Positions 4,004-52,704 of a stretch of 64,000 nucleotides of DNA are shown piece by piece (the first letter of the stretch is position 1; each line of letters begins with the position of its first letter). The stretch is from IMG/VR virus record IMGVR_UViG_3300020056_000025, positions 1 to 64,000 of that record; one strand, given 5' to 3'. The position numbers and the translations under genes were made by a program. This DNA comes from a virus. The notes under the pieces were generated by a model. The model was not told where the DNA came from and made no database searches. It worked only from the letters and a program-made list of their open reading frames with translations.

Positions 4004-4238
4004 AGTATTCATAGACATATGTGATATATACTTAGATTTAATAAATTTAGATACTAGGAAATATACCAAACCCTTCATGATTATATTCATAGAAGCAGAC
4101 GACCCAGACGGAGCATGTTACTTCGCAATATCAAGAATAATGAACGAAGTCTTAGACTCTGGTAAAACTATTAAAAATAGAATATTATGTAGAAAAATAA
4201 AAAGAAAAATAAGAATAGAAAGGATAGAATCTTTATGA
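3990..4238 (+). CDS. Hypothetical protein between dehydratase and glycosyltransferase (82 aa)
   Basis: No family recognised. It overlaps the dehydratase gene by 14 bases and the glycosyltransferase gene by 4 (ATGA), so it is translationally embedded between two sugar genes. The C-terminal third is strongly basic, ending in a Lys/Arg/Ile-rich helix. A DDPDGACYFAIS segment in the middle has Asp residues that could bind metal, but I cannot assign it. The ribosome binding site is weak, consistent with coupled translation. Confidence 0.6.
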   Translation: MRNFKVFIDICDIYLDLINLDTRKYTKPFMIIFIEADDPDGACYFAISRIMNEVLDSGKTIKNRILCRKIKRKIRIERIESL

Positions 4239-33949: not shown

Positions 33950-36900
33950 ATGTCAAAATTCGTACTAACTGCGCAGCTTCAGTTACAAGCTCCAAATAAT
34001 GTTAAACAGGTTGTTCAGAAAATGCAATCGCAGCTGAACAACCTTAAGGTTAATTTTAATGCTCAAAGTGCTGTTCAAGCACAAAAAAACATTAAAAATT
34101 TATCTAAGACTTCTGATCAAGCTTCTAAAAGTTTTCAGAGTATGGGTAAATCCTTCTCTGCTAGTGTTAGACGATTTTCTGCTCTAGCTATTGCGACTAG
34201 GGCGGTTGGTTTATTTACTAGCACTCTGAGCAACGCTGTTAAAGAGTCTATTGACTTTGAGAGAGAACTTATTAAAATTTCTCAGGTTACTGGTAAAACC
34301 GTTTCTCAGCTACAAGGTTTGACAAACACTATTACGTCTCTTTCTACTAGTCTTGGTGTTTCGTCTTCATCTCTTTTAGGTGTTTCTAGAATTTTAGCTC
34401 AGACTGGTTTATCTGCTAGGGATACTCAAATCGCTTTAGCTACTTTAGCTAGATCAGACCTTGCTCCAACGTTTGATAATATTACTCAGACCGCTGAAGG
34501 CGCTGTTGCTATTCTTAATCAGTTTGGTAAAGGCGCGTCTGCGTTGGAGGCACAGCTTAGTTCTTTGAATGCTGTTGCTGGCCAATTCGCTGTTGAAGCT
34601 GGAGATTTGGTTGCGGTTATTCGTAGGACTGGTGGCGTGTTTCAAGCTGCTGGTGGTGACTTAAATGAATTAATTGCTTTGTTTACCAGCGTTAGGGCTA
34701 CTACGCGAGAATCAGCTGAAAGTATCGCTACTGGCTTGAGAACAATTTTTACTAGAATTCAACGACCAGAAACTATTGAATATTTAAAACAATTTGGAGT
34801 TGAGTTAGTTAATCTTGAAGGTAAGTTTGTTGGTCCTTATGAAGCTATAAGGCAGCTTAGTGCTGCTTTAGCTGGATTAGAAAAAGGAGATCTTACTTTT
34901 GTTCAAATAGCAGAAGAGCTTGGTGGATTTAGGCAGATTGGTAAAGTGATTCCGTTATTGCAACAATTTTCTGTAGCTCAAGCAGCTTTGAATGTTGCTC
35001 AAGAGGGTAGTGGAAGTTTAGCAACCGACGCCGCAAAGGCGCAAGCTGCACTTGGCGTACAAATAACCAAAGTAAAAGAAGAGTTTTTAGCATTAGTAAG
35101 AAGCTTTACTTCTTCCACCGCATTTCAAGTTATGGCTGATGCCATACTAAAGATTGTCAGCGCTCTTGTGAAATTAGCTGATACTTTATCTCCAATACTT
35201 CCGCTTCTCACTGCGTTTGCTGGAATTAAAATTCTTGGCAATGTAGGAAAGGGGTTAGGCGGCTTAACTGGCTTTAGTGATGGTGGCAAGGTATTGAAAT
35301 TTGCTAGAGGTGGAATGGTTCCCGGCTCTGGCAATAGAGACACTGTTCCTGCTATGTTAACTCCGGGTGAGTTTGTAATTAAGAAGAGTAGTGTTTCTAA
35401 GTTGGGTGCTGATACATTATCCCAGATGAATGAGAATCGTTACGCTACTGGTACTCCAGCTATGGGTGTTCCAAGAAAAAGCGTTAGTAACATGACTGCT
35501 GAAGAAAGAAAGAAAGCAAGGGAGGCAGCAAAAGCAGGATCTGGTGGAACCCTTAGATTAAAATCATCAAGAGTTGGTGGCTTATTTTTACAAGAAGGAT
35601 CTGGCGGAAAACGTGGCATAGACAAATCTCTTCGTGGTATGCAACTTCCGGGGTTTGCTGAAGGCGCTAAAAGGTTAGAAGCAAGCATCTATACCGGAAA
35701 GCTTAGACCAGAAGCCGGACAGTCTATTAGAAATGAACTAAAGCCCAGCCTTGTTAAAGCGGTTCAAAACGCAGCTGCAAATTCTATAGCTTCTTTAGAA
35801 ATAAATCCGCTTAATATAGATGAAAAATCAGCTGCTAAAAGAGCTGTAAATAAAATCGATTTAACTTCTATAGAAGGTTATATATTTGAGGCGTTTACCT
35901 CCGCATTAACTGGACTACGATTATCTGATGCTGGCTCTACATTTGACTTTGTTAATCCTTCTGCTAGAGCATCGCAAAGAGTTTCACAATTATTTAGTTC
36001 TGGTTTAAGTGGTGAAACATTATTGGATGCAAAACGAACTCTTAGTACCGATAGTGTTCAGAGTGGTAAAAATTCTATTGCCAATAAAATTATAGCATCA
36101 ATTAAAAATGGTTTATTAAATAAATCTGATTTTGATAGATATGCGACTGGTGGACCTGTTGGTACAGACACAGTTCCAGCCCTGTTAACTCCCGGTGAGT
36201 TTGTTGTTAATAAGAAGTCTGCCCAGAAGATTGGTTACGGTTCACTAAACCGCATGAATAAAGTCGCTAAGTTTGCCAAAGGCGGCGTGGTTGGAAAGAA
36301 AGTTAAAGCTTTTGCTGGTGGAGGCACAAGCGGTGCTGATACTGGCGCTGTAATGATTAACGTAGATCCACTCAATGCGGCCCTTAACGCCGTAACTGGA
36401 ATCTTAACAAACACTGCATCTGCACTTAGCAGCTTTACAACTGCTGCCCTTAATACGTCTGTTTCTCTTAATAATTTATCTCAGGCCACTTTGAACAATT
36501 TAGCTTCAACTGGTCAAATCACTCAAGCTGAATCACAAGCTGCTCAGGCAGTCTTAAAAAGTAATAATGCTACTTTACAAGCATTGTCTGCTAAAAATCA
36601 AGAACAAAAGGCAAGTTTAGCTGCCGCAGCTGCTGATCAGAAAGAAGCCAAAGAGAGCCTGAAAGCTGCTCAAGGTGATAATGCAGAATCAAAAAGTGGA
36701 AGTGGTCTGCTTCTTGCGTTTACTGCATTAACTAGTGGTATTGGGATGCTTATACCAACAATAGATGAAAACTCTTCCGCTAGCACACGGTTTGCCGCAA
36801 AGCTTGGTGATCTGGCTATACAACTCACAACTTTAGCCTTTTTGGTTCAACAGGTTAATTTTGGAAAAATGGCTAACGAAGTTTCTGGAGCGATTGGATC

Positions 36901-39900
36901 ATTAGGAAAACTTGGAGGTAATTTTAGCAAGCTTGGAGGTATTTTATCTAAAATCCCCGGCGCTTCTAAGCTAGGCGGAGCCGTGAGTTCCGTTGCGAGT
37001 AAAACTGTAAGCAAAGTTGCTGGCGGTGTTGGTCAAAACGCAAACATTGGAGCGACAGTAAAAGCTCTTAGCGGTTTAGCTAATCCCTTAACGTTATTTC
37101 TTGCTGCAATTGCTGCTATAATTGCTGGTATATATCTTTGGAATTCTTCTGTTGCCGAAGCTGCTAAAGCTGCAAAAAATAAAGCCATAGAAGATGGCAA
37201 TGCTGCTGAAGCTGTGAAACAAGCCCAGATTGAGGCTGGTGGAGAAAGAGGTAAAGCCCAAGCTAAAGGCATGGCTGCTGGCGCTATTACTGGTGCTGCC
37301 ATTGGAGCGTTTCTTGGTCCAGTCGGCGTGGCGGTTGGTGCTGCTCTTGGCGCTGTTATTGGTGGTTTTTTCGGTGACTTCTTTACTCCCTTCGATAAAA
37401 CCGCCGAGGTTTTGACTAAAACAGCCAATGCCGCCGCTTTGCAAAACGCTGCCCAAAAAGCTTTAGCCGAATCAGGCAAAGCTGCATCTGAAGCTATGCA
37501 GAAGTTTAGGGATGGTAATGCTACTGCCGCAGAAGCTTTAGCTGCTACTAGTGCTGGCACAGCTGCTGTTGTAGCCTCTCAGCAAGCCACGATTGCCGCT
37601 AATACAGCGCTTATGAAAAATACTAGAACAGCTGCGAGTGCAGTTGGCGACTTGATAGTTGGTTTTACTAAAGCTTTAACTTTTGGTCTTACTGATGGAT
37701 TTAGCCTTGGCTTTGGAACTACTGCTCAAAACGAGGAAAAAGCCCAAGCCCAAATAGATGAACAAAATAAACAACAAAAACAACTTAGCCAAGAAGCTGT
37801 CTCACAAAATCAACCAGCCCTTAGCGCTTTAGGTAAACAAATTGCTGTAGCTGGTGGAAGCCTTTCAGACTTTAGGGCGCAGCTATTAGCTTCTAATGAA
37901 GGTCTTTCCAACTTGATAAGTGATGACGATTTAAAGCAAGCTTTTGAAAATATCCAAAAAGAAGTCAAGAGGGCGCAAGCTGCTTTTAATGCTATGAATC
38001 TTGGCTTTCAGAGTGTTAATGCAGCTGCTAGTGCTGCTGCACTTTCTGTAGACAATCTTATCAGTGGCTTTGATGGAAGTAGCAATGCGATTGAACGATC
38101 TATTGCCACACTAGAGGCCGGTATTACTAATGCTGCTCAAGGCATAAGCGACGAAGCTTTCTCTAGTGCGGTTGATAGTGCCGCTGCACAAATTGAAAGG
38201 TTTGGAGGAGATGCTACTAAATTCAAAGAAAACTTAAACGCTATTAATACTGCTCAAAAATTCTTTGTTAACGCTAGCAATCAAGCTAAAGAAAATTTAC
38301 GCAAAGAATTTGAACGTGGTGCGTCTAGCGCCCCAACCGCTGAAGGTAGAAGGGGCGCTTTGGCTGACGCAATAGTTGGTCAAATGGATGGAGTGGGAGA
38401 TGGCGTTAAGAAAAGAATAAAAGACGCTTTGGCTGGTGCTGATATTTCCCAAGGAGATATGGACAAGATTCTTGCTGGTGATATGAGCGTTTTAGACAAG
38501 GTATTAAAAGACCTTGGAGATACAACATTATCGCAAGTCATGCCAGCACTTAAAGCCGCAGCTGACATGCAAAACCAACTTAACGCCGTTATTAGTAAGA
38601 GACTTTCTCTTGAAAATGAATTTGCGGCTGCTACTAAACGTCAAATAGATGTTACTCTTGAGGCTGCTCAAATAATGCAAGAGTTTGGTGGTGCAGCTGT
38701 AACTCCAGAAATGCAAGGACAAGCGGCTGTTGACAGGTTGAACGTTACGGGTCAACAGCTTGGTTTAACACAAGTGAGTGCTGGAAGCGCGGATGAAATC
38801 AGAAGAAGAAATACTGAAATACAGACACAAATGCAAAGCCAAGGGCTTGTCAGAGCAGCCGCAGCTGGAGATGCTGGAGCGCAGCGGGCAACTGGATTAA
38901 GCTTAGAACAAGCACAAGCACAAACTAGTTCTCCAGAATTCCAACAGAGAGAAGATAGATTAAAGAAAGCTGCTGAAGAAACTTATAGTGAGACTAAGAA
39001 ATTAATAGATGCTAGAAGAGAAGAGATTAAAATCATCAATGCTAAAACCGCCGCTGAGAAAAAAGCTACAGAAGCATTGCTTGGAAATGATGTTGAGGCT
39101 TTTCTTGATGAAATGGCTGGAAAGGGAGCGGCTACCGCAGCTGCTATAGGCGATCCAACTCTTGCTGCTCAATTTGGAGTAAGCGATTTTGGAAGGGCTA
39201 ATAAACAACTAGAAGAAATGCAAAAAGCTGGTGTTACTAGTTTTATGGGTCAGGATATAGGCGCTGTTAGACAAAGCGCCGTTGGCATGGGACTTACTAA
39301 TGCTGGATTAAGTGGTTCTATAGTTACTGACTTAGCAAAGGCGGCGACGGGGACGACAGATGCAGCTGAAGCAGCAAAAGAAGCAGCTAGGGATTTAGCA
39401 TCAACTTTACCGCAAAGCACTGGGAATTTACAAACATCTACTGAGAATATGTTGGCGGCTACAAGGATTTTGGAATCAAATGTTGAGAAAGAAGCTGAAG
39501 AAGCTACTAAACGTGCTGAACAAAGAGTTGATGAATCAAAACCGCCAGAAGAAAAAACTGATAAGGCTGAGGCTAAATCAAGAGAGGCTGAGTCTGAATC
39601 AAAACCGCCAAAACAGCAAGAATCAGACGCTCCCCCTGCGGTTCCTCCGTCTACCTCTGAAGCAGACACTTCTGGTGGTACACCTCCCCCTTCAACACAA
39701 GCTCAAGCTGAAGCAGATAGTACAGACATTCAAAAAGTATTTGTTGTTAACTTTCCTGATATGTCTGCTAGTTTGGCTGTAGCATCGTCTGTAGCAAAAA
39801 AGCAAACAACGGGCAGCGATTCATTTCTTGGGATAGGTGGCGTAGGTGATCTGGCGAATAAAGCTTTTGAATACTCTCCAATGGGCGTAATGGGTAATAT

Positions 39901-40465
39901 GATGAGTCAGGGAGGCGCTATGGGTGGTGTGATGGGCAAAGCTCTGCAAAGCTCCCCAGCGGGTTTAGCAGCTAGAGGGCTTGGTTTGATGGAAACCTCA
40001 TCTGCGCCCACTGTAGATTCTGGCGTTGAATCGCAATCTGCTTTGGCTGGTTTACCAGAGTTAACAAGCTCCCTAAGTAACTTAACTACAGCTTTATCTC
40101 CGTTAGGGGGAGGATTTTCTACCTTAACACAGTCTTTAACTCAAGTAAATAATACTATGCAAGCGTTTTCTCAAAGTTTAAATAATATGCCTTCTTTAGA
40201 CTTGTCTGCGTTAGATGGCCTATCTAGTACTTTTAGTTCGTTTAACCAGACATTCTCAGAGACTGTAAATAAGCTAGAAGGACTAAGTATAAATATTAAA
40301 TTAGCTCCAACTAATGTAAATGTAAATATTACCGGAGGAGAATTTTTGCAACAGATTGAAGAAAGAATTAGAAGTGATATTATGAATAAAGTTGCTACAA
40401 AAATTTCAAATATCAAACATGGACCAAACGGTAATCACATTTCTTCTGAAGGTCAGTTAGGATAA
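33950..40465 (+). CDS. Tape measure protein
   Basis: A 2171-residue tail tape measure. The N-terminal region (about 40-300) matches the phage minor-tail/TMP domain (SIDFERELIKISQVTGKT, then SSLLGVSRILAQTGLSARDT and NQFGKGASALEAQ). The motif DTVPAMLTPGEFVI (about 461) is repeated as DTVPALLTPGEFVV (about 738), typical of tape measures. Hydrophobic segments near 1045-1062 and 1108-1143 probably insert in the membrane during DNA ejection. Long helical Ala/Gln-rich regions follow, with a Pro/Glu linker near 1860-1925. Using the usual rule of about 0.15 nm per residue, the tail would be near 325 nm. Ribosome binding site AGGAGAAAAT. Confidence 0.93.
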   Translation: MSKFVLTAQLQLQAPNNVKQVVQKMQSQLNNLKVNFNAQSAVQAQKNIKNLSKTSDQASKSFQSMGKSFSASVRRFSALAIATRAVGLFTSTLSNAVKESIDFERELIKISQVTGKTVSQLQGLTNTITSLSTSLGVSSSSLLGVSRILAQTGLSARDTQIALATLARSDLAPTFDNITQTAEGAVAILNQFGKGASALEAQLSSLNAVAGQFAVEAGDLVAVIRRTGGVFQAAGGDLNELIALFTSVRATTRESAESIATGLRTIFTRIQRPETIEYLKQFGVELVNLEGKFVGPYEAIRQLSAALAGLEKGDLTFVQIAEELGGFRQIGKVIPLLQQFSVAQAALNVAQEGSGSLATDAAKAQAALGVQITKVKEEFLALVRSFTSSTAFQVMADAILKIVSALVKLADTLSPILPLLTAFAGIKILGNVGKGLGGLTGFSDGGKVLKFARGGMVPGSGNRDTVPAMLTPGEFVIKKSSVSKLGADTLSQMNENRYATGTPAMGVPRKSVSNMTAEERKKAREAAKAGSGGTLRLKSSRVGGLFLQEGSGGKRGIDKSLRGMQLPGFAEGAKRLEASIYTGKLRPEAGQSIRNELKPSLVKAVQNAAANSIASLEINPLNIDEKSAAKRAVNKIDLTSIEGYIFEAFTSALTGLRLSDAGSTFDFVNPSARASQRVSQLFSSGLSGETLLDAKRTLSTDSVQSGKNSIANKIIASIKNGLLNKSDFDRYATGGPVGTDTVPALLTPGEFVVNKKSAQKIGYGSLNRMNKVAKFAKGGVVGKKVKAFAGGGTSGADTGAVMINVDPLNAALNAVTGILTNTASALSSFTTAALNTSVSLNNLSQATLNNLASTGQITQAESQAAQAVLKSNNATLQALSAKNQEQKASLAAAAADQKEAKESLKAAQGDNAESKSGSGLLLAFTALTSGIGMLIPTIDENSSASTRFAAKLGDLAIQLTTLAFLVQQVNFGKMANEVSGAIGSLGKLGGNFSKLGGILSKIPGASKLGGAVSSVASKTVSKVAGGVGQNANIGATVKALSGLANPLTLFLAAIAAIIAGIYLWNSSVAEAAKAAKNKAIEDGNAAEAVKQAQIEAGGERGKAQAKGMAAGAITGAAIGAFLGPVGVAVGAALGAVIGGFFGDFFTPFDKTAEVLTKTANAAALQNAAQKALAESGKAASEAMQKFRDGNATAAEALAATSAGTAAVVASQQATIAANTALMKNTRTAASAVGDLIVGFTKALTFGLTDGFSLGFGTTAQNEEKAQAQIDEQNKQQKQLSQEAVSQNQPALSALGKQIAVAGGSLSDFRAQLLASNEGLSNLISDDDLKQAFENIQKEVKRAQAAFNAMNLGFQSVNAAASAAALSVDNLISGFDGSSNAIERSIATLEAGITNAAQGISDEAFSSAVDSAAAQIERFGGDATKFKENLNAINTAQKFFVNASNQAKENLRKEFERGASSAPTAEGRRGALADAIVGQMDGVGDGVKKRIKDALAGADISQGDMDKILAGDMSVLDKVLKDLGDTTLSQVMPALKAAADMQNQLNAVISKRLSLENEFAAATKRQIDVTLEAAQIMQEFGGAAVTPEMQGQAAVDRLNVTGQQLGLTQVSAGSADEIRRRNTEIQTQMQSQGLVRAAAAGDAGAQRATGLSLEQAQAQTSSPEFQQREDRLKKAAEETYSETKKLIDARREEIKIINAKTAAEKKATEALLGNDVEAFLDEMAGKGAATAAAIGDPTLAAQFGVSDFGRANKQLEEMQKAGVTSFMGQDIGAVRQSAVGMGLTNAGLSGSIVTDLAKAATGTTDAAEAAKEAARDLASTLPQSTGNLQTSTENMLAATRILESNVEKEAEEATKRAEQRVDESKPPEEKTDKAEAKSREAESESKPPKQQESDAPPAVPPSTSEADTSGGTPPPSTQAQAEADSTDIQKVFVVNFPDMSASLAVASSVAKKQTTGSDSFLGIGGVGDLANKAFEYSPMGVMGNMMSQGGAMGGVMGKALQSSPAGLAARGLGLMETSSAPTVDSGVESQSALAGLPELTSSLSNLTTALSPLGGGFSTLTQSLTQVNNTMQAFSQSLNNMPSLDLSALDGLSSTFSSFNQTFSETVNKLEGLSINIKLAPTNVNVNITGGEFLQQIEERIRSDIMNKVATKISNIKHGPNGNHISSEGQLG

Positions 40466-40470
40466 ATCAA

Positions 40471-43400
40471 ATGTCAAGTAGATGTTCTAATAATGATTCT
40501 TTGAAAGTTAGAATAAAATCTGAGACAAAACTCAGAAATCATATAATTAAAAAAGTAAAACTAAAAGCAAAACCAACCGTTACTTCCAAGTTTAAATCTT
40601 TTGCTTCATTGCAGATAATTGGGTACGCCAGAGGTGGAGGTTCTTCAGGATCTTTTTCTTCAAATAATTTTGGTTCATCTAATTTTGGCGCAGAAAGCTT
40701 GTCTTCTGGACCAATTTTGCCAAAGATTATGAGAGGCGTTTTTGATATTTCTTTTGATTATGTTAAAGAATTTATTCCAAAGCCGCCCAGATCTTTACCA
40801 TCTCAATTAATTGATATTACATCTGTAGAAATTAAAAAGGGAGGATGGGACGCAATTCCCGATTCAGTTTACGAACCAGCTTCTTCGAATAATCATACAT
40901 ATACTTATATAAATTCACCTCAGTTTAATCATAGGCCGATAGCTAGATTTAAAACTTCGTTTAATTTCAAGTCTAGTTTAGGCATTCCTTTAATTAATTT
41001 AAATTCAAAGTTTAAGTCTTCTTCAAACTTTTCATCAAAATTCTTTGAGAAAATAAAAGGGCATGTTGCAAAGCTAAATACTTTTGACTTTAGCAATCCC
41101 TATCTACAGCGTTTGTATCCAGAATTAGACGAGCCCGTTACTAGCGACGTTACTTTTGTTGATAAAATTCAAAACTCAAGCGGAATATATAGTAGTATAA
41201 ATGAGGGAGTTTTTACTGGAAGTGTAATGCAAAATCAAGGCACTGGCTACTTAATGTCAGATGATTCTAATACTTATATTACCCCTTCCTCTATCAGTAC
41301 CGATAACGTATCTAGTTATAGATGTGTTGTAACAACTCCAAATATTACTCCCACAGAAAGCCTCTTATTTATTAGAGCGACAACTCCTCTATTCACAAAC
41401 GAGACAGATCGACCACCAAGCTATGATATATATAACATATTATTCCTAGATCCTTCTGGAAATAAAATAGCTAAATATAAAGATGTTACTGTTGGGGGCG
41501 AATCAGATTATTACAAATCCTCTATTTCAAATATAGATAAAGATTGGTTTACTATTGTTACTGAGCCATCAGAGTTTTATGCTGGTACTGGTGTTAGCAG
41601 AATAGATTATCCAATTTTAGGAGAACCAAGTGGATATACATTATCTTTTGATGTAAAATCAAATTGTAAATTTGAACCATTTGATGATGGATTTAATGAA
41701 GGCTTTGAAGAAGGGTGTGATATTAGTCGATTGGGTTTAGACTTGTCTTCTCACTATTTTCCTGCAAACTCAGTAAATAATCATCTTGGAATATCAAGTA
41801 CTCCTCTCTCAACACGAACTCAAGGATATCGATTAAATCCAAATAATTCTATAAGATTCTCTGCTCTAGAAATTGTTAATGCCGGATTGAGTAGTGGAAT
41901 AATACACGATACCGTTTTAAATTTACACATAACACCACAACCAACGGGTCAAAGATTAGAAAGAATTTTATCCCCAACTAAGGTTCTAACAACTAGTTAT
42001 ACAAACAACATTTATCCCACTGGAATAGTTAATACTTGGGTCTCTTCTGCCGACGCTGACGGACTTAGATTTGATAACACTTCAGATGAACACGCTGGAG
42101 TTTTGGTAGATAGACTTGTGAATCGTTTTGTTGACGGCTGGATAACTCTAGAAGATATTAATCCAATAGCTTCCTCTGGTAAACTACAGCTTGTTTATAA
42201 ACACAGCAAGCCAAAATCTATTAAACAACCTACGGGTGGAGCCTTCTTGTTTGGCCAAAAGTATGGCGGATCGGATTTTGGAACCGCAAAAATAGAAATA
42301 GTTCCTGCTGATGATTCTTTTTATGTTATAGAAGAAATTAAGCTAAGAATTTCTGCGAAGAAAGCTTCTGGCACTGACGATTACCCGATTGATGTAGTTG
42401 GGTATAGTGACGATGGGGTTTTGGCGATAACTTCTCAGGTTGGTGGATTTTTACAAAATGAACAAATTGGTTCCGGCGCAGTTCCTTTACATTCTGGCTT
42501 TCTACCTACAGATGATTTAGGAATTTCTACAAATTCTATATCAGATAAATATGCATATTTTCAAGAAAAAATAATAAAACATGCAGCTGGCGACCATTAT
42601 ATGGTTTCTACTTCTCCAGTTGTTAATAGTACTTCTTTCGAAACATATGACATTCCTCTTAAGATATATAATGATTCAGTAGAATTGGGTCGGTCAAAAG
42701 ATTACTCTATGAGTAGTTATTTCGAGCAGTTATACTTAGATATTTATCCCATACCTAGCGGTGCTTCTATCCAAAGAGCTGATCTGATAATTAAATACAA
42801 ACCAGCTGGAGCATTGCCATTAAGTACTGCTGGATATCTTTCTAGAGAATTTTATAGCAGAGAAGGAAGGTTATATCCAGACGCAAAGAGAGGCACTGAT
42901 GTTATAACAAATTCTAATTCTGAACCTCTATCTTTAATTGAAAACATACCGCACGGATATACACATATAGAAGATACTCTTAAAACTAATTACTCAAGAA
43001 GATGGCGTGGCAATACCGGAAACGTTGATAGTTCTGCTTTCGATCCAGTATCTTTTGACTTCTCTTTTGAGAGAAGTGTATTAGATCAACCATTTCTTCT
43101 TGGTTATTTTGATTTTAATAAAACAGTTGGAAGTTATGTTATAGATTCTAATAATTACGGTTCAACCTCTGGAGTCTTTAATTCAGATTTACAGTCTAGC
43201 TTAATAAGAAATATTGGTTTAAGATTTAATTCTGACAGCTTGTTTAATGCCAATGTTAGAAATTACAAAACTATTGACTGGTGCGGAAGTGGCCATGAAC
43301 TAGAAGGAAAAATACTTGACGCTTATGATAACGCTCTGCGTGTTTCTGGTGTTAATGGTTACTTAGACTTTGGAAATACTCCAACCTCTAGCGGTTTTTC

Positions 43401-46400
43401 TGTTTACACAAGGTTTTCTCCTGACTCAAGTATTAGCGGGGTTGGATACAATGGTTGGAATGACGGAGTTATTTTTGGTAAATGGGACAGTGGGCAAAAT
43501 CTAGAGTATGCCCTTGGTTATGAAAACGAATACCTGTGCGTATATGCAAGATCTGAAGATTCTTCTGTTGTAAAAGTCGTTGATTCTATCCCTTATACTT
43601 CTTATCAATATCCTCTTTCTACCTTAGTTACATACAATCAAAATCATGATAATAAACTAAGACTATATGCTTATAACGAAATTTCTTCTGGCATTCCTGT
43701 TTTGAGAGGTGAATCGTCTTCGTTTATTATGCATAGTGGAAATAGTAGCTTGTCATTTGGGTATTCTTCTGGTTCAGGGGTTGGTATAAATGCGTTCATT
43801 CATGAAATTGGAATTTCACACGTAAATGCTAGTGGTTCTACTAATTTGGTTGAAGGCGTAGGCAATAGATCTATACAAGAAGAAAGTGTAGCAGACTTTT
43901 TTGCGTCTCAAGCAATTGACTTCTGGAGAGGATCTGACAATTTATGGAACTATGTTGACGAAAAAACTGATGATTGGAAATTGGGATCATTTAAGTATTG
44001 CTCTTTTTCTCCAGACTTTAACGTTATGAGCCTTCGTATTGGGAAAGACTTTATATATCATAATTTTTATAATCATGGACAAACATATGACAACCTAACA
44101 GACCTGAGCCTACCAGATTCAACCAAAGCTTCGGGATTAGCATACCATACACAAATTGAAAACGACATGCTGAGAGTTCAGCTTTCTGGTAGAGAAGATA
44201 GATTTCACGCAGTTGCTCCAAGAATTTCTAAAAACTTTCCAAGAAGTTACTTGTTTGCAGAAGATTCACTTCTAGTCAATACGATAATGCAGCACAGCTG
44301 TGACCAAGATATTGTTTGGCCAGATGGTCGGCGTGGAGTTAAAATTATTGTTAGTCTTTATACACCAAGTAGAGAAAGCGAATATACTCCGACTAAAAAC
44401 TATGGCTTAGTAAGTAGAGATGTTCACTACGTTACTCCAGAGGATTGCTGGTTGAAGCTAAGAAGTAAATTCACCTTAGAAAACTATAATGACACCAGTA
44501 GTGAGCCTTGGTCTTACTTCGATAAAACTATTAGCAAAAAAGAATTTACAGAGAATTATTTCTCTAGAGACGTTGATGAAATGTTTGTGCAGTATGATTT
44601 AGCTTACCCTTCTGGTACTTACGAAGAATCAAAAATTATAATTCATTCTTTAGATATTAGTCTTGATAATATACTTCTTAACAAAGATAATGAAAATGAG
44701 CGATTAAATGTTTACACTAGCGGCGAACCATACAGAGACTCATCTTTAAATTTATCTTGGGCCGAAGGTTCGGTAAGAGGTGTTATTGCTGCACAAGGTT
44801 TTGGATCTTCGAACTATGGCGTTGTTCTGGGTGATTCTATTACTCTTAATGATCTATCGCTCGGTTTTTACACAAGCGGAAATATATACTCTAATATTTA
44901 TACGAGCGGAATAAACCTTTATGCTTCTGGATATACGTATGATTCAGATATTCTTAATTGTTACAGTGTGGGTAGTGAGACCCACAGTGGATTACTAAAT
45001 ATCAGTAGCTTAGGCGGTTACGCAAATGAAAACAATTTAAACAAACCGTTCTGCTTATATTCTGACGCCTTTTACGCAAACGCTGACCACCTGAGCGAAA
45101 GTCTAAACGTTTATAATTTGGGAGTTAACACCAAGGGAGAATTTGCTTCTAATATTAACGAAACTATGCATAGCTTTATACTAGGTGGATTAGGAGCTAC
45201 AAGTTTTCCAATTAGTATATCAGAAACTTTCAATATCTCTATTGCTACTCCTCAATTTGCTTCAATTAATTTTCAAGATTCTATAAATTTATATACTGTT
45301 GTTCGTAAGGTGGAAGACACAATATTCGATAGTGTTAACATGTATACTCACCACGAAGCCAGAATAGTAAAAGAAGAAAATGAATTAGAATCATTTTTAT
45401 GGAATGGGAAGAACTTTGGTTTTGAAATTTATGTAGATGATAATCAATATGCATCAATTCCAGCAAATGATGAAATACGGGGCGTAAACACGATGTGTTA
45501 CGGAGACTGTGATTCTCTTGCTGGAATACCTTGCACAGAAACAGACATTGTTACCCATGATACACTATGGTATTCGCCAGAATGCGTAGATGGCGGCGTT
45601 ATAAGACCATATAGAGTTTATAGTAACCCAGATGTAAATGCTTTTGGGACAAATCAACCATACGATAAGCAATATTATGGCATAAGAAAATTCACAAGCT
45701 TGATACCAAACGCTCCCTACACGATTAAGATTACTGGACAAAGTGGAGGCGGTGAAGTTTTAGAGGTTCCTAGAGAAGTGTCAGAATGGAACTATGGAAA
45801 ATCAGAAACTCCATCCGGCGTGTTAAGCCCTGAAGTAAATTATTCAGGACTTCAGATTTTAGAAAGTTTAAGCAATCGTGATTCTAATAACAATTTTGGA
45901 AAATCTGTCAAAGTTGTAGGAGATTTACTTGCTGTTGGTGTTCCACACGCAGATAGCACTGTTGGTGTGGATGACTTATTAAATTCTGATACAGCTTCTC
46001 GCACTGTAAATAGTCATGGAAAAATATATGTTTACAGAAGAAACCCAGCTCCATCTGGACATGATTGGTCGAATCAAGATGACCAAGCTCAATGGTCTGT
46101 TGAGCAAGAAATTGTTTTACCCACAGGTTGGAGGAGGGATTACTTTACCAATACTGTCGCTAGCTTTACTGATGATACTGGAGAATTCCTGCCATTTACT
46201 GGATCTGTTAGAAGTTGGTTTAATTCTGGAGAGGGACGAGAGCTTGGATATTCCTTAGATGCAACTAAAGTCGGGGATAAAGAAATTATAGTAGCTGGTG
46301 GACCCGGATGCGAGTGGACAAGGACGTTTGCTCCCATAGCAGCTACCCCAGTTTCTATTGGTTTAATTGTTTTTAATAATGAACTACAATCCAACGCAAA

Positions 46401-49400
46401 ACCTTGGCAAAATATATTAGAAGAATTAAAAAATAGAGATTTATTATATCGATACTTTTCTGATCCGCCAGTTGAATTTGATATTAAGATTATGATTTTA
46501 GAACCACATCTTGGTTCAAATATATCTTTTCAGCCATCAGATGAATTTGCTACTCCGAAGCCAGATTTTGTATCTAAACACGTTACTACAAGACACTGGG
46601 AAAGGAGTACCACCAGTCAAGAATGGATTGATGCAGACGCTGTGATTCTGCAAGAAATGAAAAATATTTTCCACGAAACGTTCCCAATAACCCCCGGAGC
46701 GTTACATAGTGGAATTCCTCCTTTACTTGGTATATTTATAGATGACTCTGCCTCCTTGGGAACTGATGTTGTTGGTTATTATACCAACGGATTCAAGGGC
46801 GCTGTAAACAAGTTCATAGATTATTACAATTCTTATTCGTACAATAATGGTTTAAGTGATCAATATGGCAACCCGTCCGAAGGATACACTCAGGTTACAG
46901 TTAGACAAAGAGAAGCAGACTGGGTTGACCAATCCATTGAATGTCTTAAAGATATTACAGATATTAATAAAATTATTGAAAATAATAAAACAAATTTAAT
47001 AGCTAATAATCTTGGTACATTTAATGTTAATGCTCAAGAGTTTAATAACCCTCCTCCGAGTGGTGGTGCTGTTTACATTTTTGAGAAAGAAAACCAAGAT
47101 TCTTTGTTTGAGCTAAAGCAGGAAATAAGATCTCCCGCAACATACACAGATAATGCTTCTGATAGATTTGGACACGATGTTGCAATTAGTAAAAACGGAA
47201 ATATAATCGTAATTGGTTCTCCTTACTCAGAAAACGCTGTTCAAATTTTTGAAAAAAATAATTCACACGAAAAAGAATTGCAAACCAAAATACATCAAAG
47301 AATACCAGCTTTCTTAAATGCTGAATACAACAAAGAAGTTCAAAATCAAACCTTTGGAGAATCCTTTAATTTATATGAAGATTACCTTGAGCAAAAGGAT
47401 ATCGTTAATGACTTTGCTTTAACAGAGTCTCTGTTTAATAGAATGTCAGAGAGTTTAAAGTTATCTTTTTATAAATCTTATGATATATCCCCATACAAAA
47501 AAATAAAAGATCTTACTTACTCTGATATTCACAAAGACATGGGTGGTGTATGGAGTGAATTTTATTCTAAGTACATACCAACTTCTCGCATTGGTTATAG
47601 CGTTGATACAAACGATGATGGAACTTTAGTTGCAATTGGTTGTCCAACCGACAGTCTTGGAGAGAGAGATAATACCATTACTTGGTTTAGGCATGATGGT
47701 GGACAAACTCAAGATTGGCAATGGCAAAATTATGTCAACGCAGGATGTGTTAGAGTCTTAGAGAGCAGAAAGTATTACCCCCACACTAACAAGGTTGTTG
47801 AATTTTATAAGTATGGAAATTTACATGAAGATCTTGCTACTGAAGAGCATAAGTACTTATACCATGATAATATAAAACAAATGTTTGAAAGCAAGCATTT
47901 AGATTATTCTAGAACTAGTTTCTCAGAAGACGTTGATATTCCAGAAGACGCCGGAATGGCTTTCATTATAACTCCATCGATTGATGCTTCTAGTGACGAA
48001 GTTGTGCAAAATATTAAAAATTGGTTGGCAAAAGGTGACAGACATTTAGTTCTTGTTGGCGATGATCCAAGATACGAAAAAAATGGCGCGTTTCAAAAAT
48101 CAACAGCTATTATTAATGAGTTGCTAGAAAAACTAGATATCAATATGAGAATTTATCCTGCTCGGAATGAAAGAGAAGCTTTACTCACGGATACAAATAT
48201 AGAATTAAATGTTCAACAGTCTTTTAAGCCAGCTAAGTCTAGCAGCATTCTTGGGTATGCGGGTAGTAAGTTAAAGTCTTATGGTGTGGGAGATATTAGG
48301 CATTACAATAAAGATAAATTAGATTTATATAATTGTACTCTTCCGTTTGGGACAAAGCTTACTAGCAATGGAGAGTTAACAGAAAATTACAATGATCCAT
48401 TTGTAATATTAGAAAAAATTGATGCTGTCTCAGATGGTTCTGAACCGCCAAGAAAAAAGATTTATAGAGAGATGCATGATAAGTGTCATCTACCAATTAA
48501 ACATGAGGGCGATTTAAGAGCGGAGTATCAAGACCAATGTGCCTTTATTAACTTGGGTGGCTCCCCTGTTTGGTTAAACTATAAGAGGAATTTACCTTTT
48601 GCTTATGGGGATCATATTACGGCGGATTGGGGCTGTGTTGGTCCGGGAGATGTAATTTTATCAAAAGAAGAAAACCTCAGAGATTCACATGCTCCAGTTC
48701 CAATGCTAGCAGCTTATGAAAATGTTAATCTTAAATTTGACGTTCCAGAAATTCCTGCCTCTCAATTTCTTCAGCGTTATATTTCTTCTTATAAAGATGG
48801 ATATCAACATAAGTTTGGAAGAGTTCCTTACTCGGGAGTTTCTTTTTCTTGGACTGCAAATGAAAGTAATTATACATCAATTGAAAATAATATTAACCAA
48901 ATTACCAGCGAAAGTCTTTTCTTTGATCCTCCACAAACTGCTTCCTCCGATGGTTTTATTGATTCAATAATGCAAGCGAAAGCAACAACTCCACTAAGAG
49001 AAGTAGAACAAGATATTAATGCGGGGTATTTCAATGTTGTAAATGAGGAACCATACCTTCCTCATGAGGTTGATAATTCTCATGTTGTATTAATGGCTAC
49101 AACTTTTACTGAAAGAAAAGATATATTGCTTTCATCGCAGAATGATGCTAATCTAGTATTTTATAAAAACTTGTTAACGTATCGTAATAGTATAAACTCT
49201 CAAGGTTTTTATTGTAAAGTCGCTCAGTTGGGAAGCTTTACAAATAGATCTAGTTATACTGATGGTTACTTCAAAAGCGATATAGCTTTCCAAATGTATG
49301 GTCTCGGGGTAGACATGCGAGATCTAAACGTTGACATTGACGATATATCCTTAGAGCACTTAGAGTATAATGTTGTTTGGATTGCTAACACTGATCAGAT

Positions 49401-52400
49401 GCCTTCTGATGAAGATATTTCTAAGCTAAAAGACTTTTTAAGCCTTGGAAATAAAAAGGTTGTTATTACATATGGTCAGGAACCAAATAAACCAGAAGAA
49501 AGTTTAGAGCTTACACCTTATATGATAAGGGCAGCAAATGTCGCTAGAAATATTTGCGAAAAATTAGGCGTTACTATGCGTCCAAATTTCTTGGTCGGAA
49601 AAAACAGATACGCTTTTAAAGAAGACTATAATAGCAATGCTGTGGGTAAATATTCAGAATTGTATATTGTATCTGAATATGCTCAAGAAGGAATACCGCG
49701 CCTAGAGGGTGACTATGCTAAATTTACTACTAATGCCCCACCGTTTACTAGGTATGGCTTAGGAACAACATTAGATCATAACATTATACCAATACAAAAA
49801 AATAACAGCTCAATATTGCTTAGACTTGAAGAAACAGTTTCTGATATACAAACTGTTTCTTTAGGAAAACCAAAATTAAACACTGGTATTACCAAAGTAA
49901 CATTTGACGTTCCAGACCATTCAGAAGAACTTTCTCACGATCTTGGTAGGCAGGCTGAAGATGATTTATATCTATTTAGAATGTACTTTGATGTTATCTC
50001 ACTAACAGAACAGGAAAACCAAAACATTAAAGTTTATATAGAAAATGCTCAGTCTTCCATAAATTCTGATCAAGAAGGTCAAGCGCTACCAATTAGTAAT
50101 GCTAAAGGAACATTAGTTCAAATACAAGACGGAGACGATCTTGGTAATATTTACAATTCTAATATATCCGCTGGAGCTAATATTACCCTTCAAAAGTCTT
50201 CTTCCTTGAAGACCTACACTTTAGATTTTCAAGCGGCGAGTGGAACCCAAATAAACCTGTACTTTACTGGCTATAAATATTGGCCAGAACGTGATTTGGT
50301 TCCAAATCCAGAACAAGTAAGAACTACGAGGCTTGTTGCAGTTTCTGGTGTTAGAGTTCCTGTAGAAACTACGGTTTCTCCTACATATCCAGTTTATGAT
50401 GTAAGAGTAGTTGAAACTCCTGCTACACCGGGATACTCTTATTATCAAGATGTGGACAGGCAAATTAGTACAAACAGTTCTAAATACTGTGCAGAGAATA
50501 ATTCTGAAATATGTTCAGCTGAACCTCCAATTGGCTATGGGTCCGAAGGTTCTGATTTAGATATTGCTGACGGACCAGTGGTGGTCGCACAACAGTTTTA
50601 TGATCAAGCAGGTTTTTATTCTGGACATAATAGATCTAGGGTTACTGTTATTAGTGATGCAAGTTTAATTCAGGGTCCAAACATTTTAACACAAGAAGGA
50701 AATACTGTTACAGATTTAGCTAGCTTTTTAGCTTCTTTATATCCAACTACGAATGAGTTTTTTCAGGACGAATACTATGGTGTTCAGCAAAGCACTTTCT
50801 ACCCAAATGCTTACAAATTAATTTCTCCCGAAAGATCTAGTCCAAGTAGGCTAGTAAACGCATTTCCTCAAAACTCTGGATTAAATGCTAGATTTGGTTC
50901 ATATCCAAGTTCTGGATTTCCTGTTAGTTCTTATGCTGATGACGAGGGTAAGAAAAACATTAACATTCCTTTGGGTCAAGATCAAGCTGCGATACCTTTT
51001 GACCTTATGATTGGTTTATTAGCAGCTGATGATCCCGGAACTTTTAGGCAGCTTCCAGAACCTCCAAGATTGCCACCAAGCTACTGGTTTTCGGTTTTTC
51101 CTTATACATATTTAGGATATACCCAACAAGAATATGAACAAAAGTGGTACACTGACGAATTTTTACAATATCAAGCTTATTGGTCTTCTACTTCAAAAAT
51201 ACAAGATGTTTATCAAGGCCAGACCTACGTGGATGCGGGCTTGTCGGAAAGAATTCCACCAATAATGAGAGCTACTGGTTTTGATCACCTTGACTTGGAT
51301 GTGTTTAATTCTGGATATCCCGGAGATTTGTTTGGTTATAAAGTATGCATACATAATGATAAGATTTATGCTGGATCTCCATTTACTCCCTATAGCTCTG
51401 AGACTATTCTTTCTTGGGATGAAATTTTAGACAGTGGATACATGCATGGCGTTGAGATTGGTTACAACGGCGGAGCTGGAGCTGTTTATCAAATTGAAAA
51501 AGTTGGAAACGTTGGCAGTGGTGTTGGATCAATTCAAGGTTCTTCAAAAGAAACGTCTGGATTACCTTGGCAAACAGTCAAAAAAATTAGACCACAAGAA
51601 ATCGGAGTTGGATTTTCTAATTTAACCGCGAACGAAGCATCTGGAATTTTTGGTAATCACTTATATACTGATGAGTTTTTACAAAACAATGCTTTTGTTT
51701 CAGATATGTTTGGTTACAATATTACACTAGACGCTGATTTAATGGCGATATCAGCTCCCGGTCATAATTTTGAAGTTTTATTCCAAGAAAATTCTGGACA
51801 ATTTGTTAATAAAGAATTTAATGAGCAATTTAATATTACTACTCGAAACCAATATGATTTAGCAATTCAATCCAATAGAAATAACTACCCGAATAGCGGT
51901 GAAACTATAATAAATAATGGAGCTGTGTTTACCTATGAAAATAAAATTAATGACTGGGGATCTAAGAGTAAAGACTGGACACCCATACAGAAACTAACTC
52001 CAGAGCAAGTTACCTTTAGCTCAGGTAATGCTTACTTTGGACAAGCCATAAGCATGTTTAGATCAAACAGATCTGACGCAGATTACATACTAGCTATAGG
52101 TTCTAAAAATTATACCACTGATACTATGCAAAAAGCTGGATCTGTTTATACCAATGATGCAATGTTGAGAAAATTAAGACCGGCCTTTTCTCATCCAGAT
52201 ACATATCTAGCTGGAAAAGTTTTTGGAAACTATAAAGACAAAAGTGAATATATTGAATTTAACTTTAAAAATGGAAATATCCCAGATGATAAACATTCTT
52301 TCGAGGGTAGAGTTTTTGCCAATGAGCAGGGAGAAATATTTATTGAAGCCTCTGGTCAGGACATGGTTGACAGAGGATATGTAAATCACAGACCGTTTAT

Positions 52401-52704
52401 TAAGCAGATTCGTGGGGCTTACGAATTTGGTGTAAAAAATACAGAAAGAATCAATTTATACTCTGAAGGTAAACCATTTTCTTCGTCTGGCGCGCTCAAC
52501 CTTACCAGCAAAGCTCCAGACGTGGGAATTGTGTATAATAATGTAGGACTTTACAGCATATCCAATTTAGATAGTTCTGGAATTTTGCAATTATATGCTA
52601 GTGGAATTAATATGAATAATATACATGAAGATATAAATTTTGTATGTAGTGGTATTGTTTTTATGGACCCTCAGTCTATAGCCCTTTATGGATATTCAAT
52701 ATAA
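40471..52704 (+). CDS. Giant multidomain tail protein (4077 aa) with FG-GAP propeller-like and LamG-like modules
   Basis: One uninterrupted 4077-residue frame (about 450 kDa) between the tape measure and tail-tip genes. Seen in order: a basic N terminus; beta-rich N-terminal third; a laminin-G/concanavalin-like domain (about 875-1120, LLGYFDFNKTVGSYVIDS at its start); an LYxSG-type repeat region (about 1395-1630); FG-GAP-like motifs near residues 1808, 1923, 2232, 2373, 3620, 3747 and 3855; a MIDAS-like DDSAS near 2091; two related alpha/beta domains (2495-2573 and 2967-3048); and a second LYxSG region at the C terminus (3991-4077). Position implies a tail-tip or side-fibre protein; size and domain mix suggest adhesion. 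The stop overlaps the next ATG by one base. Confidence 0.85.
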   Translation: MSSRCSNNDSLKVRIKSETKLRNHIIKKVKLKAKPTVTSKFKSFASLQIIGYARGGGSSGSFSSNNFGSSNFGAESLSSGPILPKIMRGVFDISFDYVKEFIPKPPRSLPSQLIDITSVEIKKGGWDAIPDSVYEPASSNNHTYTYINSPQFNHRPIARFKTSFNFKSSLGIPLINLNSKFKSSSNFSSKFFEKIKGHVAKLNTFDFSNPYLQRLYPELDEPVTSDVTFVDKIQNSSGIYSSINEGVFTGSVMQNQGTGYLMSDDSNTYITPSSISTDNVSSYRCVVTTPNITPTESLLFIRATTPLFTNETDRPPSYDIYNILFLDPSGNKIAKYKDVTVGGESDYYKSSISNIDKDWFTIVTEPSEFYAGTGVSRIDYPILGEPSGYTLSFDVKSNCKFEPFDDGFNEGFEEGCDISRLGLDLSSHYFPANSVNNHLGISSTPLSTRTQGYRLNPNNSIRFSALEIVNAGLSSGIIHDTVLNLHITPQPTGQRLERILSPTKVLTTSYTNNIYPTGIVNTWVSSADADGLRFDNTSDEHAGVLVDRLVNRFVDGWITLEDINPIASSGKLQLVYKHSKPKSIKQPTGGAFLFGQKYGGSDFGTAKIEIVPADDSFYVIEEIKLRISAKKASGTDDYPIDVVGYSDDGVLAITSQVGGFLQNEQIGSGAVPLHSGFLPTDDLGISTNSISDKYAYFQEKIIKHAAGDHYMVSTSPVVNSTSFETYDIPLKIYNDSVELGRSKDYSMSSYFEQLYLDIYPIPSGASIQRADLIIKYKPAGALPLSTAGYLSREFYSREGRLYPDAKRGTDVITNSNSEPLSLIENIPHGYTHIEDTLKTNYSRRWRGNTGNVDSSAFDPVSFDFSFERSVLDQPFLLGYFDFNKTVGSYVIDSNNYGSTSGVFNSDLQSSLIRNIGLRFNSDSLFNANVRNYKTIDWCGSGHELEGKILDAYDNALRVSGVNGYLDFGNTPTSSGFSVYTRFSPDSSISGVGYNGWNDGVIFGKWDSGQNLEYALGYENEYLCVYARSEDSSVVKVVDSIPYTSYQYPLSTLVTYNQNHDNKLRLYAYNEISSGIPVLRGESSSFIMHSGNSSLSFGYSSGSGVGINAFIHEIGISHVNASGSTNLVEGVGNRSIQEESVADFFASQAIDFWRGSDNLWNYVDEKTDDWKLGSFKYCSFSPDFNVMSLRIGKDFIYHNFYNHGQTYDNLTDLSLPDSTKASGLAYHTQIENDMLRVQLSGREDRFHAVAPRISKNFPRSYLFAEDSLLVNTIMQHSCDQDIVWPDGRRGVKIIVSLYTPSRESEYTPTKNYGLVSRDVHYVTPEDCWLKLRSKFTLENYNDTSSEPWSYFDKTISKKEFTENYFSRDVDEMFVQYDLAYPSGTYEESKIIIHSLDISLDNILLNKDNENERLNVYTSGEPYRDSSLNLSWAEGSVRGVIAAQGFGSSNYGVVLGDSITLNDLSLGFYTSGNIYSNIYTSGINLYASGYTYDSDILNCYSVGSETHSGLLNISSLGGYANENNLNKPFCLYSDAFYANADHLSESLNVYNLGVNTKGEFASNINETMHSFILGGLGATSFPISISETFNISIATPQFASINFQDSINLYTVVRKVEDTIFDSVNMYTHHEARIVKEENELESFLWNGKNFGFEIYVDDNQYASIPANDEIRGVNTMCYGDCDSLAGIPCTETDIVTHDTLWYSPECVDGGVIRPYRVYSNPDVNAFGTNQPYDKQYYGIRKFTSLIPNAPYTIKITGQSGGGEVLEVPREVSEWNYGKSETPSGVLSPEVNYSGLQILESLSNRDSNNNFGKSVKVVGDLLAVGVPHADSTVGVDDLLNSDTASRTVNSHGKIYVYRRNPAPSGHDWSNQDDQAQWSVEQEIVLPTGWRRDYFTNTVASFTDDTGEFLPFTGSVRSWFNSGEGRELGYSLDATKVGDKEIIVAGGPGCEWTRTFAPIAATPVSIGLIVFNNELQSNAKPWQNILEELKNRDLLYRYFSDPPVEFDIKIMILEPHLGSNISFQPSDEFATPKPDFVSKHVTTRHWERSTTSQEWIDADAVILQEMKNIFHETFPITPGALHSGIPPLLGIFIDDSASLGTDVVGYYTNGFKGAVNKFIDYYNSYSYNNGLSDQYGNPSEGYTQVTVRQREADWVDQSIECLKDITDINKIIENNKTNLIANNLGTFNVNAQEFNNPPPSGGAVYIFEKENQDSLFELKQEIRSPATYTDNASDRFGHDVAISKNGNIIVIGSPYSENAVQIFEKNNSHEKELQTKIHQRIPAFLNAEYNKEVQNQTFGESFNLYEDYLEQKDIVNDFALTESLFNRMSESLKLSFYKSYDISPYKKIKDLTYSDIHKDMGGVWSEFYSKYIPTSRIGYSVDTNDDGTLVAIGCPTDSLGERDNTITWFRHDGGQTQDWQWQNYVNAGCVRVLESRKYYPHTNKVVEFYKYGNLHEDLATEEHKYLYHDNIKQMFESKHLDYSRTSFSEDVDIPEDAGMAFIITPSIDASSDEVVQNIKNWLAKGDRHLVLVGDDPRYEKNGAFQKSTAIINELLEKLDINMRIYPARNEREALLTDTNIELNVQQSFKPAKSSSILGYAGSKLKSYGVGDIRHYNKDKLDLYNCTLPFGTKLTSNGELTENYNDPFVILEKIDAVSDGSEPPRKKIYREMHDKCHLPIKHEGDLRAEYQDQCAFINLGGSPVWLNYKRNLPFAYGDHITADWGCVGPGDVILSKEENLRDSHAPVPMLAAYENVNLKFDVPEIPASQFLQRYISSYKDGYQHKFGRVPYSGVSFSWTANESNYTSIENNINQITSESLFFDPPQTASSDGFIDSIMQAKATTPLREVEQDINAGYFNVVNEEPYLPHEVDNSHVVLMATTFTERKDILLSSQNDANLVFYKNLLTYRNSINSQGFYCKVAQLGSFTNRSSYTDGYFKSDIAFQMYGLGVDMRDLNVDIDDISLEHLEYNVVWIANTDQMPSDEDISKLKDFLSLGNKKVVITYGQEPNKPEESLELTPYMIRAANVARNICEKLGVTMRPNFLVGKNRYAFKEDYNSNAVGKYSELYIVSEYAQEGIPRLEGDYAKFTTNAPPFTRYGLGTTLDHNIIPIQKNNSSILLRLEETVSDIQTVSLGKPKLNTGITKVTFDVPDHSEELSHDLGRQAEDDLYLFRMYFDVISLTEQENQNIKVYIENAQSSINSDQEGQALPISNAKGTLVQIQDGDDLGNIYNSNISAGANITLQKSSSLKTYTLDFQAASGTQINLYFTGYKYWPERDLVPNPEQVRTTRLVAVSGVRVPVETTVSPTYPVYDVRVVETPATPGYSYYQDVDRQISTNSSKYCAENNSEICSAEPPIGYGSEGSDLDIADGPVVVAQQFYDQAGFYSGHNRSRVTVISDASLIQGPNILTQEGNTVTDLASFLASLYPTTNEFFQDEYYGVQQSTFYPNAYKLISPERSSPSRLVNAFPQNSGLNARFGSYPSSGFPVSSYADDEGKKNINIPLGQDQAAIPFDLMIGLLAADDPGTFRQLPEPPRLPPSYWFSVFPYTYLGYTQQEYEQKWYTDEFLQYQAYWSSTSKIQDVYQGQTYVDAGLSERIPPIMRATGFDHLDLDVFNSGYPGDLFGYKVCIHNDKIYAGSPFTPYSSETILSWDEILDSGYMHGVEIGYNGGAGAVYQIEKVGNVGSGVGSIQGSSKETSGLPWQTVKKIRPQEIGVGFSNLTANEASGIFGNHLYTDEFLQNNAFVSDMFGYNITLDADLMAISAPGHNFEVLFQENSGQFVNKEFNEQFNITTRNQYDLAIQSNRNNYPNSGETIINNGAVFTYENKINDWGSKSKDWTPIQKLTPEQVTFSSGNAYFGQAISMFRSNRSDADYILAIGSKNYTTDTMQKAGSVYTNDAMLRKLRPAFSHPDTYLAGKVFGNYKDKSEYIEFNFKNGNIPDDKHSFEGRVFANEQGEIFIEASGQDMVDRGYVNHRPFIKQIRGAYEFGVKNTERINLYSEGKPFSSSGALNLTSKAPDVGIVYNNVGLYSISNLDSSGILQLYASGINMNNIHEDINFVCSGIVFMDPQSIALYGYSI

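Follow-up and report, generated by a model that had tools for sequence, protein, structure and literature searches.

The window analysed here, a 64,000-nucleotide stretch of viral DNA (positions 1 to 64,000 of IMG/VR virus record IMGVR_UViG_3300020056_000025, itself 68 kb in length), encodes a giant tail protein, the C-terminal half of which appears to form a single seven-bladed FG-GAP propeller that carries two large inserted domains, in a layout resembling that of integrin alpha chains with an I domain. The gene of this protein is located directly 3' of a tape-measure gene, as is also the case in relative L013, and this position points to a location of the giant protein at the tail tip. The two genes are as follows (coordinates are those of the window):

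33950..40465, + strand: tape-measure protein gene (2,171 amino acids (aa)), identified via PHROG tape-measure families (E 3e-23) and setting the tail context
40471..52704, + strand: open reading frame (ORF) of the giant tail protein (4,077 aa), with four full-length relatives (L002-L005) of 45-77% identity

Relatives of the giant protein were gathered from virus contigs by profile and sequence scans. In addition to the full-length relatives, many further ones were identified, with identities down to about 26-35% in the propeller, and the propeller plan was shown to be common to about 65 distinct IMG/VR relatives.

Seven Phe-Gly-type motifs were located in the giant protein (F1809-G, L1925-G, F2233-G, I2374-G, F3621-G, F3747-G and F3856-G), with the Pro of 'GAP' positioned 15-19 residues past Phe-Gly in all except blade 7, which lacks this Pro; a Gly and a Pro of the FG-GAP/Cage motif, with 13-20 residues between them, are present in six of the seven blades. 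The Pfam family FG-GAP_2 (PF14312) matched the giant protein with 43.9 bits (E 2.8e-11; curated cut-off 23) as well as ten of ten relatives, being the sole propeller family to match and the only credible family in the Pfam scan of the giant protein. When the repeat profiles were compared pairwise across 35 relatives, all 21 pairs were related at P <= 0.0015, most of them at P <= 1e-6. A combined repeat hidden Markov model (HMM) identified exactly seven places along the 4,077 residues (12.8-35.1 bits), with no eighth place above the best of 50 shuffles (1.0). In leave-one-out models, repeats R1, R3, R4 and R6 were recovered and R2 was borderline, while R5 and R7 were not recovered, blade 7 being the weakest repeat. 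A motif scan showed that the DxDxDG Ca2+ motifs of integrins are absent from blades 5-7, and a single DxNxDG-like string was observed within the repeats, in blade 4 (2379-2384). Structure prediction of residues 1786-2450 with AlphaFold2 (AF2; 35 sequences; predicted local distance difference test (pLDDT) 82, predicted template modelling (pTM) score 0.74) yielded four-stranded blades 1-3 and strands A, B and C of blade 4, the last of these with low confidence. The propeller elements were assigned as follows:

45877..46122, + strand: blade 1 (residues 1803-1884), by FG-GAP HMM, with AF2 strands 1812-16, 1819-24, 1850-57 and 1875-81
46138..46224, + strand: long beta hairpin joining blades 1 and 2 (residues 1890-1918), by AF2
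46228..46320, + strand: strands A and B of blade 2 (residues 1920-1950), by FG-GAP HMM, with AF2 strands 1928-34 and 1937-44
47062..47136, + strand: strands C and D of blade 2 (residues 2198-2222), by AF2
47158..47262, + strand: strands A-C of blade 3 (residues 2230-2264), the best FG-GAP_2 match, by HMM and AF2
47263..47484, + strand: helical segment inserted between strands C and D of blade 3 (residues 2265-2338), by AF2; poorly conserved (21% mean identity)
47494..47517, + strand: strand D of blade 3 (residues 2342-2349), by AF2
47578..47769, + strand: strands A-C of blade 4 (residues 2370-2433), by FG-GAP HMM and AF2, the last strand at lower confidence
50800..50838, + strand: strand D of blade 4, beyond insert 2 (residues 3444-3456), by D-strand profile (10.5)
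51304..51591, + strand: blade 5 (residues 3612-3707), by FG-GAP HMM (28.3 bits), with strand D by profile
51691..51999, + strand: blade 6 (residues 3741-3843), by FG-GAP HMM (25.3 bits), with strand D by profile
52018..52185, + strand: blade 7 (residues 3850-3905), by FG-GAP HMM (12.8 bits)

Short repeats of the 'LNLYTSG' type were noticed by eye on both flanks of the propeller, at window positions 44670-45390 and 52440-52690 (residues about 1400-1640 and 3990-4070).

The spacing between blades 4 and 5 was 961-1214 residues in all mapped relatives except for one mis-assigned match (a negative value), and none of the mapped relatives had a short insertion at this site. The outer strand (D) of the blades exhibits a recognisable pattern, W..v.K[IL].P. 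A D-strand profile derived from blades 1, 2, 3, 5 and 6, averaged over 35 relatives, scored 10.5 at residue 3444 (YPNAYKLISP), beyond the insertion, whereas the runner-up among about 1,170 positions scored 1.1. Strands C and D of blade 4 are therefore separated by the insertion, and the blades flanking it on either side form one unit. These data support the closure of the seven blades into a single ring rather than two folds; we infer the closure itself, as the AF2 model comprises blades 1-4 and the whole ring, spanning about 2,100 residues, is above the modelling limit of 1,200. A preliminary description of this stretch had listed seven FG-GAP motifs, taken to form one seven-bladed propeller with a 1250-residue insertion between motifs 4 and 5. 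The motifs were confirmed where it had placed them, above chance by Pfam, profile pairs and repeat HMM, and the single propeller is now supported by the seven repeats and by the blade-4 strand D across the insertion. The gap between motifs 4 and 5 does amount to 1,247 residues, but the insertion interrupts blade 4 itself and the inserted part covers about residues 2440-3440.

The first of the two inserted domains, insert 1, is located in blade 2, where the AF2 model shows it flanked by strands B (1937-44) and C (2200-06):

46333..47055, + strand: insert 1 (residues 1955-2195), an alpha/beta domain carried by the blade 2 B-C loop, found in 65 distinct relatives
46378..46383, + strand: residues 1970-1971, past strand 1 of insert 1, Asn-Glu in this protein; candidate partner of the DxSxS element
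46741..46755, + strand: DxSxS element D2091-S2095, past strand 4 of insert 1 (strand from AF2); [DE]x[ST]xS in 64 of 65 relatives

Modelled alone by AF2 with 36 sequences, insert 1 was confidently predicted to be an alpha/beta domain (pLDDT 86.9, pTM 0.86) of five strands, with the element order b-a-b-b-a-b-a-b-a. The sequence Asp2091-x-Ser2093-x-Ser2095, numbered 144-148 in this model, comes immediately after strand 4. The string alone is uninformative, since the protein contains the bare DxSxS pattern three times and its composition alone predicts 3.0 occurrences, and it is the conservation that carries the meaning. Among the 65 distinct relatives, the motif variants were DxSxS (44), DxTxS (10), ExSxS (6), ExTxS (4) and DxSxG (1), such that D/E and S/T are retained at their positions in all 65 and the final S in 64, although the mean pairwise identity of insert 1 is 32%. 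Position 1970 is occupied by Asp in 54 and by Asn in nine of these relatives (D/N in 63 of 65), the window protein being among those with Asn. Judged by sequence, D/N1970 is a candidate partner of the DxSxS site, and it is plausible that the acidic DxSxS loop, lying where a parallel strand ends, constitutes a putative divalent-metal site. In PMC3192720, conserved segments of the loop preceding strand 1 and of the 2-3 loop are described as bonding to each other, with the Ca2+ loops (1-2 and 3-4) at the other end of the blade. Because inserts 1 and 2 are carried by the 2-3 and 3-4 loops, respectively, this loop layout would place insert 1 on the same propeller face as the integrin I domain and insert 2 on the other face.

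No match was obtained in PDB sequence searches with insert 1, blades 1-4 or the whole protein, and Foldseek searches of insert 1 against the PDB and viral models returned nothing at E <= 0.001. Metalloprotease matches at the top of the Foldseek list were rejected as spurious (template modelling (TM) score 0.13). The highest-TM match was to SurE, a metal-dependent phosphatase (E 8e-3, TM 0.32), as might be expected if insert 1 were an enzyme domain, such as a metal-dependent hydrolase of Rossmann-like type with polymers of the host surface as its substrate. As no profile similarity to SurE was found, SurE was rejected as a relative of insert 1, and with no match to any enzyme family an enzymatic role is considered very unlikely.

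In VWA domains, DxSxS follows the first strand. In insert 1 it follows the fourth; the 50 top-ranking PDB matches that Foldseek returned for insert 1 (all E > 0.001) included no VWA domain, in a comparison that depends on chain order and would miss a permuted VWA fold, and a Pfam scan of 36 insert 1 members gave no significant VWA match, a single member reaching VWA_2 at E 0.16. Insert 1 is thus not a VWA domain in the ordinary sense. It could instead represent a circularly permuted or rearranged VWA-like domain, in which strand 4, DxSxS and the following helix would correspond to VWA strand 1, and strand 1 would be the counterpart of VWA strand 4 and the TDG loop, so that both signature elements would share one sheet edge. 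Consistent with such an arrangement, the DxSxS-helix-strand segment scored 22-24 (P 0.002-0.02) when compared with a profile built from 43 VWA domains of bacteria, aligning with their strand 1-helix 1-strand 2 part, compared with a maximum of 16.2 among 100 column shuffles (a lenient control, as column shuffling breaks secondary-structure patterns) and 11.3-16.6 for other alpha/beta profiles; moreover, the VWA DxSxS motif scored best at residue 2088 across a span of 2,170 residues. The P-values are modest, however, and this local profile similarity is suggestive, not more. Strand 1 of insert 1 ends in T-D (FTDEF in most relatives), but the match to the TDG signature at 1964-1971 does not stand out, with higher scores elsewhere, and no counterpart to the MIDAS (metal ion-dependent adhesion site) threonine loop was seen. 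We therefore regard a permuted VWA-like domain as unlikely. Equating strand 1 with the VWA TDG strand, as hinted at by four VWA sequences, was abandoned when the signal was lost with 43 sequences. A separate ORF of 266 aa in the virus record of L061/L154 (G007; bases 17847-18200) matched VWA_2 at E 2e-6, slightly below the cut-off, and is unrelated to the propeller protein.

The second inserted domain, insert 2, is the larger and more variable part, with a mean identity of 22-46% by segment:

47788..50790, + strand: insert 2 (residues 2440-3440), carried by the blade 4 C-D loop, by HMM mapping
47944..48216, + strand: DUF4350-like domain (PF14258; residues 2492-2582), 24.8 bits in the window protein, below the curated cut-off of 30.4
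49252..49578, + strand: second DUF4350-like copy (about residues 2928-3036), from profile-profile comparison with the first copy (96.8%, E 2.2e-10)

DUF4350 matched four of five relatives (best E 5.5e-7), and a PDB sequence search with insert 2 returned chance-level matches only. The DUF4350 copies were also considered as relatives of insert 1 and were rejected following a negative profile comparison.

Comparison of the model of blades 1-4 and insert 1 with the PDB, using Foldseek, yielded seven matches at E <= 0.001, all of which were I-domain integrins, i.e. alphaL (5e6r, 5e6s, 5e6u), alphaX (4neh) and alphaE (9p97), with E-values from 2.5e-7 (alphaL) to 1.6e-4. Integrins without an I domain were far weaker in the same search (alphaV, 0.047; alpha4beta7, 0.059). 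The giant protein shares with the I-domain integrin alpha chains seven FG-GAP blades, here in a probable single ring, as well as a DxSxS-bearing alpha/beta domain that projects from blade 2 on the side where the strand 4-1 and 2-3 loops lie. According to PMC3192720 and PMC10659397, the integrin I domain is inserted between blades 2 and 3, which places it past strand 4 of blade 2, and integrins with an I domain are regarded as having arisen in chordates. In contrast, the insert is located here in the B-C loop of blade 2, two strands off the integrin insertion point, with DxSxS past the fourth strand of the insert; blades 5-7 lack DxDxDG, a second insert of 1,000 residues interrupts blade 4, no partner beta subunit is known, and sequence identity is 9-12%. 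The identity of the seven top matches and the conserved DxSxS would fit a true integrin-alpha-like receptor head, homologous to integrins, with insert 1 as a VWA/I domain bearing a standard MIDAS between blades 2 and 3. Given the position of DxSxS, the displaced insertion point, the absence of DxDxDG from blades 5-7, the lack of a VWA domain in the Foldseek and Pfam results for insert 1 and the chordate origin of I domains (as given in the two papers cited above), this reading is largely refuted and must be deemed highly improbable. With regard to the preliminary description, which had considered an adhesion design convergent with integrins, with a DxSxS element between motifs 2 and 3 and a VWA fold there as the support to be looked for, an integrin-like architecture is supported, but membership of the integrin alpha family is not. 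The DxSxS element is indeed present in an alpha/beta domain between these motifs, albeit inside blade 2 rather than at the integrin insertion point, and a canonical VWA fold was not borne out.

Bacterial integrin-type propellers of the FG-GAP_2 type (Chouhan et al. 2011, PMC3192720) likewise have seven repeats; the bacterial sequences of that paper retain in their repeats the Ca2+ motifs that are absent from the phage protein, and large inserted domains are not described in the sections covered. Beta-propellers on phage baseplates are described in PMC4901313 for the receptor-binding protein of Staphylococcus aureus phage phi11 (five blades), the platform of which probably binds a wall sugar, and for phiKZ gp131C (seven blades). 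Propellers thus do occur on baseplates. To our knowledge, neither of these two is of the FG-GAP type or bears an inserted DxSxS alpha/beta domain. FG-GAP-like stretches are also present in an 'FG-GAP repeat protein' of Vibrio phage nt-1 and a giant protein of Sinorhizobium phage Phosso, but the matches are short (2-25% of the query; E 0.03-6) and no shared architecture was shown; in Phosso (PV764938.1, 48356-68978), FG-GAP-like matches are numerous but weak and fall in giant hypothetical proteins. The bacterial MIDAS adhesin Bd0875 of Bdellovibrio (PMC11003981) resembles insert 1 in its DxSxS and acidic residue, and its cell contact is metal-dependent; it differs in having a canonical VWA fold and no propeller. 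Viral FG-GAP repeats with a proposed role in attachment are encoded by prasinovirus MntV1 (PMC11467894), which is a eukaryotic algal virus and for which inserted domains are not described in the accessible portion of that paper. The literature covered, itself incomplete, yielded no account of a phage tail protein resembling integrins.

The named-phage collection contained no close relative and no protein with the architecture of the giant protein, and PHROGs has no family for its FG-GAP propeller, indicating that the virus group with this propeller is essentially undescribed. IMG/VR contigs encoding relatives reach about 176 kb. A 40% identical relative, L079 (VFHP01000009.1, 44391-65572), is located on a 94-kb contig that forms part of a metagenome-assembled genome of SAR202 (Chloroflexota); this may be a virus contig binned with the genome or a hint of the host. 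In L054, L055, L063, L067-L070 and L072, the propeller ORF starts much later (1,734-2,498 aa), and the N-terminal half may be a separate gene or the frames may be broken.

With a little more conviction than doubt, we favour the reading that the giant protein belongs to the distal tail (tail tip, baseplate or central fibre) in a widespread uncultivated tailed virus family, in which a single seven-bladed propeller of the FG-GAP/integrin-alpha-N-terminal type would serve as a platform presenting inserted domains. The blade 2 B-C loop bears the five-stranded alpha/beta domain, the conserved [DE]x[ST]xS loop of which probably binds a divalent metal, and the blade 4 C-D loop, on what would be the opposite face, bears about 1,000 residues with two DUF4350-like domains. 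This reading draws on the seven repeats without an eighth, the split of blade 4 across insert 2, the fold and position of insert 1, the I-domain integrin matches, the conserved [DE]x[ST]xS and the neighbouring tape-measure gene. The metal site may then contact a host-surface molecule or a neighbouring virion protein in a metal-dependent manner, and the likeness to I-domain integrins would be convergence that started from a shared, older propeller family.

Several observations weigh against this reading. The integrin matches have TM-scores of 0.14-0.17 and root mean square deviations of 18-22 A, with no global superposition, so that the likeness is local rather than global, and the E-value may partly reflect a gap-free path through the I domain; what is supported is local structure in chain order and a shared domain order, not overall shape. 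For insert 1, neither PDB sequence search, Foldseek nor Pfam gave a significant relative, and the model of the predicted propeller covers blades 1-4. Furthermore, the even conservation of blades and inserts is unlike that of a hypervariable receptor-binding tip and speaks for a structural or common-ligand role. In this respect, the propeller and its inserts might be a purely structural tail-tip hub, with DxSxS stabilising the domain or a subunit interface and having no adhesion role. Across all relatives, the architecture and the lengths of the inserts hardly vary, and the blades show good conservation (39-50% mean identity), which would suit a structural component better than a tip that binds receptors. 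By its position, however, the DxSxS loop would lie at the exposed end of the domain, on the loop that carries ligand-binding elements in integrins, and a purely structural hub is considered possible, if doubtful. At the other extreme, the protein could be an independently evolved phage analogue of the integrin headpiece, combining an FG-GAP propeller with a permuted VWA-like, MIDAS-like domain for metal-mediated host-surface contact and a second giant module on the opposite face, which we consider distinctly unlikely.

The favoured reading, a distal-tail propeller serving as a platform for inserted domains, likens the giant protein to an integrin head in layout, and this likeness is better than such comparisons usually are; integrin family membership is not shown. 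With its approximately 250 residues and good model, insert 1 lends itself to direct tests of both metal binding and adhesion. FG-GAP propellers were already known in bacteria. A conserved virus family with a DxSxS alpha/beta insert in blade 2 of such a propeller would constitute a second, independent route to the I-domain layout.

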